Source of the DNA: Litchfieldia alkalitelluris
GTDB lineage: Bacteria > Bacillota > Bacilli > Bacillales > Bacillaceae_L
DNA length: 64,000 bases
Direction of reading: 5' to 3'
NCBI RefSeq assembly: GCF_002019645.1
Contig: NZ_KV917374.1
Location: forward strand, 2,678,696 to 2,742,695
The translations under genes and the position numbers were made by a program. Numbering within the stretch: the first letter of the stretch is position 1; each line of letters opens with the position of its first letter. Under the pieces are notes generated by a model that saw nothing but the letters and a program-made list of their open reading frames with translations, searched no databases and was not told where the DNA came from. This document shows, in pieces, positions 36,627-37,471 of the stretch.

Positions 36627-36667
36627 AAAAAGATCGGATGGAATGTTACTTCCACCGATCTTTTTTG
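36627..36667. terminator. Bidirectional terminator between sigF and the redoxin gene
   Basis: AAAAAAGATCGG pairs with CCGATCTTTTTT around a GGAA...TTCC inner stem, serving both convergent genes. Confidence 0.9.
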
Positions 36668-36670
36668 TGT

Positions 36671-37174
36671 TTAATTTATTTTCTCATATTCTTCCTTGAT
36701 TTCTGCTAAGGTTTTATCGAGTTCTTCGCCCCAATGATCATTTATTGTATGGAAGATTACGTTGCCTTCTGCATCCATCAACCCATAGCCTCTATAAGCA
36801 ACATCTCCATTTTTCATATCAAATAAAGAAGCTAACTCTAAGTCTGGATCTGATACAAAAGGTAAGCTATTTCCAAGCTGTTCTTTTATGGCAGTATACA
36901 ACTCCTGTTGCTGCTCTGGGGTATCGTTACTAAGGATGTACATATTTACATCCATATCATTAAATTTATCTAAATTTTTATGCAACTGAACCAGTTGCTG
37001 TTGGCAAAGTCCTCAGGTGTAAGTAGTGATGAAAAAGAAAAGAGTTGGTTTTTCTTGTGGAAAGGTAACTTCTTCTTTTTGCTGATTTAATAATGTCATG
37101 GACTCTTTTAATTGAGGTTGTCCACATGCAGTTAATATAACTAACATTGATATAAGTGCTATTAATTTCTTCAT
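36671..37174 (-). CDS. Thioredoxin-fold lipoprotein with in-frame TGA, candidate selenoprotein
   Basis: Read through one TGA (37013-37015, codon 54) this frame gives 167 aa. An N-terminal signal peptide ends at a lipobox (ILTAC, C17). A redoxin-like domain begins EKPTLFFFITTYT-x-GLCQQQLVQLHKNL, where x is the TGA, and continues with LPFVSDPDLELASLFDM and YGLMDAEGNVIFHTI. The TGA stands where the first Cys of a CxxC motif would be, giving U-G-L-C if decoded as selenocysteine. A SECIS-like hairpin follows. AAAGGAG precedes the ATG and there is no frameshift. The alternative is a nonsense-mutated gene. It lies alone between sigF and spoVAA, facing sigF. Substrate unknown. Confidence 0.75.
36982..36998 (-). 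promoter_or_regulatory. Candidate bacterial SECIS hairpin
   Basis: On the minus strand GCAACT-GGTTC-AGTTGC forms a perfect 6-bp stem with a 5-nt loop starting GG. It begins 14 nt after the TGA codon, so the loop is 20 nt from it. Known bacterial SECIS elements have a short apical stem, a G within the first two loop bases and a similar distance. Confidence 0.65.
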
Positions 37175-37404
37175 ATTTACTCCTTTATAATTTTCTGTCT
37201 GTAAGGTGTTTTATCACTTCATGTGGAAACAGATACCCCTTCATATAGTGTAACCTACCCAGGAAAGGGTCAATTAGCAACTAATAAAAACATCATATCT
37301 GTTTGGGTCGTTATTTTCCAGTAATTTGTTCATAGTCATCTTATAAAAATGGCAAGTGCTAAATTTTTCAGACTGTGGTAATTAATGGTGTAGTAGGGAT
37401 AGTT

Positions 37405-37434: not shown

Positions 37435-37471
37435 CAGATACAAGGATAACAATGTGTAGGGTGTGAATGTA

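Follow-up and report, generated by a model that had tools for sequence, protein, structure and literature searches.

Introduction

A 2026 review of selenoproteins (PMC13188914) counts 119 families or subfamilies, and its entries include a 'Prx-like thiol:disulfide oxidoreductase' (PF00578, UxxC/UxxU) and a 'Redoxin family protein' (PF08534, UxxC), in which U stands for selenocysteine (Sec). For Firmicutes/Bacillales, three Sec families with three proteins are given in PMC1794560, and the passages concerned do not name them; the present family may be among them. The words lipoprotein, Bacilli and Bacillota are absent from the available text of PMC13188914, and the family described here was not found in print in the accessible text of the open-licence PMC literature. 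Here we report a computational analysis of a gene in a 64,000-nucleotide (nt) stretch of Litchfieldia alkalitelluris NZ_KV917374.1 (the window), covering its reading frame, the conservation of an in-frame TGA, the Sec machinery, the covariation of a selenocysteine insertion sequence (SECIS), the lipobox and the predicted fold. The gene lies at 36671-37174 on the reverse strand, numbered from the start of the window. It looks like a pseudogene and, judging from its sequence and those of its relatives, is almost certainly intact, encoding a membrane-anchored Sec redox protein that belongs to a family from spore-forming bacilli.

An in-frame TGA in a redoxin-like lipoprotein gene

One frame runs from an ATG start (37174-37172) to a TAA stop (36673-36671), and its sole interruption is a TGA at codon 54 (37015-37013) in the context TTYT-TGA-GLC (FFFITTYTUGLC). 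With the TGA counted as a residue, the product has 167 residues. The frame is preceded by a ribosome-binding site, AAAGGAG (37180-37186), with a 5-nt spacer to the ATG, and its signal peptide carries the lipobox LTAC (37124-37135), of which Cys17 is encoded at 37124-37126. An earlier reading of the window from its letters alone (the sequence-only reading) had described a frame open save for the TGA, a good ribosome site and a lipobox, and all three are present. Cys57, the second residue of the UxxC redox pair, is encoded at 37004-37006. Ordinary open reading frame (ORF) finding gives a fragment of 104 amino acids (aa) at 36671-36985, as that reading had predicted; it is the longest ordinary ORF listed at the locus.

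The frame is not a product of chance. The read-through product matches PF00578 (AhpC-TSA) with 53.9 bits (cut-off 26) and PF08534 (Redoxin) with 39.4 bits (cut-off 26.6), and the relatives described below conserve both flanks, with the TGA at the same codon. For the protein, 17 NCBIfam families are listed, all with scores below their cut-offs. A PADLOC match (cyclase, E 0.002) and weak NCBIfam matches to lipoprotein motifs were dismissed as chance or signal-peptide likeness. The lipobox signal peptide suggests that the protein is exported and lipidated, making it a probable bacterial lipoprotein.

The genome holds the machinery for Sec insertion that the sequence-only reading had proposed to look for: selA, selB, selD and a selC tRNA-Sec are all present. 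SelA was found at C1:3286183-3287274 in an open frame of 469 aa (PF03841, 479.1 bits; cut-off 22.8) and SelB at C1:3288064-3289920 in an open frame of 628 aa (363.8 bits; cut-off 242.25). The tRNA-Sec at C1:3290253-3290345 scores 57.8 bits against the RNA family model (gathering threshold 47), and ARAGORN names the same RNA tRNA-SeC with anticodon TCA. The three genes lie within about 4 kb. No SelA match in the genome was obtained with PF12390, a 40-position N-terminal model; this was a false negative of model choice, and PF03841 then matched. SelD, at C1:1164052-1164981 (425.6 bits; cut-off 125), has its own in-frame TGA in SSKGGUGCK and appears from this to be a selenoprotein itself, so that the genome appears to hold at least two Sec genes.

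Conservation of the TGA codon and co-occurrence with SelA

A profile built from eight members (A1) was searched, with an E limit of 1e-18, against 396 genomes of the order. It gave 64 matches in 61 of the genomes and in 26 of 135 genera; 63 of them carry the TGA, and one (in genome G154) is a C-terminal remnant without it. All three genomes of the same genus have the gene with one TGA, and the gene is present in 6 of 17 genomes of the same family, genus included. The UxxC site could be verified in 62 of the 64 matches, each with TGA, the other two being decayed copies. For comparison of sites, 63 distinct regions were used, namely these 62 of the 64 matches and a copy from Mesobacillus foraminis (L031), with the copies of G154 and G312 set aside; the M. 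selenatarsenatis copy (L032) and that of genome G387 do not differ over the region and count as one. TGA stands within UxxC in all 63 regions.

Conservation extends well beyond the TGA codon. A permissive lipobox pattern matches all 63 distinct members, and the columns that are invariant in their alignment include the lipobox Cys17, Sec54, Cys57, Gln60, Leu61, Arg128 and Gly129, with identity to the window protein as low as 23%. The ratio of nonsynonymous to synonymous substitution (dN/dS) is 0-0.42 on both sides of the TGA in six close pairs (33 codons before it, 45 after); it is noted that dS is saturated downstream of the TGA in both pairs that contain the window gene.

A second search of the same genomes, with a 63-row profile (A3) and E to 1e-11, added among the matches listed at least 16 further genomes with Sec members, from two further GTDB families (f25 and f28), as well as one more copy in G043. 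Each of these 17 added loci (L111-L127) has UxxC with TGA, a SECIS-like stem and, as judged by eye, a lipobox. Eleven A3 matches without a stop were opened among those listed (L129-L139); ten have CPxC and, by our own reading, look BCP-like, and one is AhpC-like. In a 92-row tree, the 63 Sec members group together (support 80/90, not starred) and the Sec members of f25 and f28 make up a second group (100/100); all 11 Cys rows fall outside both. The tree does not resolve the two Sec groups from the Cys rows as one Sec clade, and it therefore does not show that Sec arose only once.

No Cys form of the clade was found in the order-wide searches of the 396 genomes. In a phylum sample of 398 genomes (E up to 1e-15), matches were confined to two genomes, both of this order, and thus no Cys orthologue was found outside it. 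Plasmid records gave no match at E up to 1e-5. The comparison of homologues that the sequence-only reading had proposed came out for Sec: Sec-using relatives keep the TGA and distant paralogues have a Cys in the corresponding position (SCGLC in one from this genome, CPVC in other redoxins), and a Cys form within the clade was not seen. Within the genomes searched, which are samples and not exhaustive, the clade is apparently Sec-only and limited to the order.

Two side observations concern gene copies. Three genomes have two diverged Sec copies each, G387 (L042/L095), G251 (L046/L099) and G128 (L047/L098), and the paired copies fall in different parts of the tree. A separate redoxin outside the clade (L128, G144:C15:245839-246216) has a TGA in FUPNC (UPNC) and, by eye, no lipobox; its genome, G144, also has the Sec lipoprotein.

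SelA was scored at E up to 1e-60 in the same 396 genomes and was found in 180 of them; Sec users are thus not rare in this order, which corrects the remark of the sequence-only reading that selenoproteins are uncommon in Bacillaceae. Homologue and SelA occur together in 61 genomes, the homologue alone in none, SelA alone in 119 and neither in 216 (Fisher 1.6e-24, kinship not corrected); in other words, the 216 genomes without SelA gave no homologue match at E up to 1e-18. By genus, the tallies are 26 and 67 of 135, all 26 being SelA genera (hypergeometric 5.9e-10). The extra genomes from the A3 search, at least 16, also have SelA, as found by inspection of the SelA list.

These results bear on the simplest alternative, a nonsense mutation or pseudogene. 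One in-frame stop by the standard code is what such a gene would show, and decayed copies do exist (G154 and G312). The same TGA in all 63 distinct sites, the spread of matches over 26 genera, a dN/dS of at most 0.42 past the TGA in the six close pairs and the strict co-occurrence with SelA all argue against it, and we regard it as extremely improbable. On TGA conservation and SelA co-occurrence, pseudogene, sequencing error and simple read-through were rejected. The loss of the Sec genes, or decay of this frame beside intact Cys relatives, which the sequence-only reading had named as findings that would speak against it, was not what we found: the machinery is present, the relatives keep the TGA and the rest of the frame is open.

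A SECIS-like stem-loop downstream of the TGA

The published model of the bacterial SECIS (bSECIS) describes a stem of 4-16 bp and a loop of 3-9 nt with G in the first two loop positions, the loop lying 16-37 nt past the UGA and the minimum free energy being at most -7.5 (PMC13188914). In the window, a stem-loop, GCAACT-GGTTC-AGTTGC (36982-36998, reverse strand), begins 14 nt past the TGA. It has 6 bp and a 5-nt loop with G at loop position 2 (alternatively 7 bp with GUU), and the loop lies 20 nt past the UGA. The fold energy of the site is -9.6 kcal/mol over 48 nt, a folding length of our own choice. The predicted stem-loop past the TGA fits the model, and the energy limit of -7.5 kcal/mol is passed at 62 of the 63 sites.

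RNAalifold on the 63 sites predicts exactly this hairpin. For 61 distinct rows, 98.4% of the cells are paired (shuffled, 92.8), 26 cells show a double change (shuffled, 9.5 +- 2.3) and covariation scores 0.205 (shuffled, 0.093); none of 500 shuffles reaches any of the three values. The signal is destroyed when the stem partners are slid. Over 80 sites, pair 4 is A-U in 22, G-C in 53, G-U in 5 and A-C in none, and it alternates CAA...TTG with CAG...CTG, which is synonymous on both sides. The outer pair is G-C at 51 sites, U-A at 18 and C-G at 3, and 8 sites leave it unpaired. At every one of the 80 sites, loop position 2 is G and position 3 is U or G.

Several observations have to be set on the other side of the balance from a functional, Sec-decoded gene. 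Two copies are decayed in genomes that both keep SelA: that of G312 (L064/L140) is frameshifted just ahead of a retained TGA (PYTUGLC), and that of G154 (L100/L141) is N-terminally truncated. The energy limit is missed by L032 (-7.2 kcal/mol) and, in the later set, by L125 (-7.4). The lowest-energy fold over 48 nt differs, by eye, at 6 of the 63 sites (L032, L070, L086, L088, L090 and L092), and the outer pair is broken at 6 of the 63. Two measures of the stem are unexceptional, pairs with changes on both sides (290 of 500 shuffles) and further pair types (297 of 500), and genome G+C could drive part of the covariation between CAA/TTG and CAG/CTG. The tRNA-Sec family model is not specific alone, its cut-off being exceeded in 5 of 14 control genomes. 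Lastly, the neighbourhood of the window gene yields no clue to its function.

The UGA could also be suppressed to Cys or Trp without selenium, or act as a switch that yields a lipopeptide of 53 residues under selenium shortage. Distant relatives carry Cys at the corresponding residue, and either outcome would preserve the TGA. TGA is an ordinary stop in this genome, which argues against suppression; in the window it ends 5 of the 41 ORFs of at least 180 aa. Suppression is also unnecessary because the Sec machinery and the SECIS fit are present, and we consider both versions very improbable as replacements for Sec decoding. As an addition to it, a selenium-scarcity switch may operate. Taking the Sec machinery, the TGA in all 63 distinct sites, the SECIS fit and the co-occurrence with SelA together, the selenoprotein proposal of the sequence-only reading is upheld, and we consider decoding of TGA-54 as Sec practically certain on these sequence comparisons.

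Predicted fold and proposed mechanism

A model was computed with AlphaFold2 on the 63-row alignment, with Sec modelled as Cys. Its mean predicted local distance difference test score (pLDDT) is 91.1, and residue 54 immediately precedes a helix at 55-66. The top structural matches in the PDB are peroxiredoxins, namely Bcp4 (3hjp, E 8.7e-12), AhpE (1xxu, 2.1e-11) and AhpC (5y63, 3.3e-11). In a profile alignment to thiol peroxidase 2cx3, Arg128 (36791-36793, reverse strand) falls on an Arg, Cys57 on a Cys and Sec54 on a Ser three residues before that Cys; in peroxiredoxin terms, these three positions of 2cx3 would be the catalytic Arg, the peroxidatic Cys and the site usually occupied by Thr. The predicted fold of the Sec lipoprotein is peroxiredoxin-like, with a thioredoxin-type UxxC pair.

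One possible role is that of a lipid-anchored peroxidase, still a selenoprotein, in which Sec54 would be peroxidatic and peroxides would be reduced at the cell surface. The peroxiredoxins at the top of the structural matches point this way, as does Arg128, invariant in the 63 members and aligned to the Arg of 2cx3. The signature PxxxTxxC/U is absent, and it is Cys57, not Sec54, that falls on the Cys in the active-site segment of 2cx3. We view a peroxidase as possible and on balance unlikely. Because the peroxiredoxin body carries a thioredoxin-type UxxC pair, selenol chemistry of the thiol-disulfide type outside the membrane is favoured, and we judge it probable.

We propose that SelB and Sec-tRNA(Sec) would decode UGA-54 as Sec, because the SECIS stem-loop begins 14 nt downstream. 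From the lipobox, the UxxC pair and the predicted fold, we infer export, lipidation, chemistry and the kind of substrate: the protein would be exported, lipid-anchored at Cys17 and, as a thiol/selenol oxidoreductase, active outside the membrane. Sec54 would attack an oxidised substrate, either a protein disulfide or a peroxide, with its selenol. Resolution of the intermediate by Cys57 would give a selenenylsulfide, which a thiol donor outside the cytoplasm would reduce. Any single substrate that might be named is a tentative choice, rather unlikely even at best. The explanation as a whole, a Sec-decoded, exported and lipid-anchored UxxC thiol/selenol oxidoreductase with a peroxiredoxin-like fold, seems to us highly probable.

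Genomic context

The window gene stands alone between a convergent neighbour (from 36616) and a divergent one (at 37463), which are probably a sigF-type and a spoVAA-type gene of the sporulation locus, respectively. A terminator-like hairpin lies 3' of the gene, before the convergent sigF-type gene (36637-36656, reverse strand); it is a consensus match only, one being found against a shuffled mean of 0.6. A promoter scan gave one site against a shuffled mean of 4.2, and therefore no promoter is claimed. The position beside sigF/spoVA, to which the sequence-only reading had drawn attention, says little on function, because the relatives sit in other contexts.

Neighbours were mapped in 70 loci, including L103 (on the same contig as L032), the non-member L128 and the decayed L140 and L141; cluster identities rest on one member each, by Pfam and NCBIfam. 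In 17 of the 70 loci (L076-L092), namely all 17 from the GTDB families f3, f35, f42 and f45, an SCO1/SenC-cluster gene precedes the Sec lipoprotein gene on the same strand. The SCO1-like gene is directly adjacent in 15 of the 17, at 23-138 nt from the matched region, and a YtkA-cluster gene intervenes in the other two (L084, L087). The CtaG cluster is found in 17 loci and is seen beside the SCO1-like gene in 14 of the 17. All 8 mapped loci of genus g49 (11 were found) have a cupredoxin-cluster lipoprotein gene downstream in the same orientation.

These neighbours raise another possible role, that of a redox partner of extracytoplasmic copper-site assembly which, still as a selenoprotein, would keep the Cys ligands of SCO1-like proteins or CuA reduced. 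The SCO1/SenC genes in 17 of 70 loci, the CtaG cluster in 17 loci and the cupredoxin-cluster genes of g49 are consistent with such a role. The window gene and most other lineages are without such neighbours, gene neighbourhood does not establish function, and the 17 loci are relatives of one another. There is thus a hint of a link to copper and oxidases limited to some lineages, and the copper-site role is, in our view, a speculative assignment. That the Sec-only family as a whole might handle the redox state of copper sites (SCO1, CtaG, cupredoxin, CuA) on the outer side of the membrane in bacilli is similarly doubtful. If it were true, selenium would matter for the assembly of respiratory oxidases in the order, and the role would help explain the retention of SelA in 180 of the sampled genomes.

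Other recurrent neighbours are noted as side observations. A DoxX-cluster gene lies just upstream in L031 and L106. Of the 11 loci of family f25, 5 have a UbiD-cluster gene upstream (L111-L114, L120), and in L111-L114 and L123 the Sec gene is followed by one for a short protein of cluster 15, a cluster whose tested member has no Pfam match.

Comparison with known systems

With the TGA read as Sec, what seemed a pseudogene becomes an intact gene, and relatives that look intact occur in at least 75 of the 396 sampled genomes of the order (59 from the A1 search, with the two decayed copies left out, and at least 16 from the A3 search). This reading raises the question of what a selenium enzyme does at the outer face of a Gram-positive cell. 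The pattern of UxxC followed by GCARCU-NGKNN-AGYUGC, with a variable outer pair, could be used by annotation pipelines for reading such TGAs.

Among the described selenoproteins, the family is closest to two entries of the review. With the 'Prx-like thiol:disulfide oxidoreductase' selenoproteins it shares PF00578, which all 63 members match at E up to 0.001, and Sec in UxxC (PMC13188914). It is set apart from them, as far as the description of that entry goes (representative WP_010940744.1), in its predicted lipid anchor and its restriction, within the samples searched, to one order, with no Cys form seen in the clade and a conserved SECIS stem of its own. The 'Redoxin family' entry is an equally possible filing, considering that all 63 members match PF08534 and have UxxC; the window protein scores higher on PF00578, and that entry (representative HEU0032618.1) is known by its listing (PMC13188914). 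Under the rule of the review as given in its available text, same domain and same Sec motif, the family falls under such an entry.

The comparison extends to proteins further away. Sec peroxiredoxins (PF00578, PxxxTxxU) share the peroxiredoxin-type fold and the invariant Arg, whereas the window family lacks PxxxTxxU and carries its Sec three residues N-terminal to where peroxiredoxins have their Cys. In its redoxin core, the family is weakly similar to NF040769 (SelL-related redox protein) and NF053656 (TUGYCR thioredoxin-fold (seleno)protein), but the window protein lies below both curated cut-offs (32 bits vs 120 and 16.8 vs 100, respectively). The 63 members have only weak NCBIfam matches, as judged by E-value, the cut-offs having been compared for the window protein alone. 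Extracytoplasmic thiol-disulfide oxidoreductases of the TlpA/ResA/StoA type resemble the family in their thioredoxin fold and CxxC-type motif, with weak ResA matches from NCBIfam in 32 of the 63 members; unlike them, the family has Sec for the first Cys, and the window protein falls far short of the cut-offs for ResA and StoA. At the place of the cis-Pro that is usual in TlpA-type proteins, the window family has RG.

Redoxin-like UxxC selenoproteins are themselves known, and on a stricter reading the present gene could be counted as a new member of them. As far as sequence comparison and the available literature reach, what appears to be new is a putatively lipid-anchored, apparently Sec-only and order-restricted branch of these selenoproteins.
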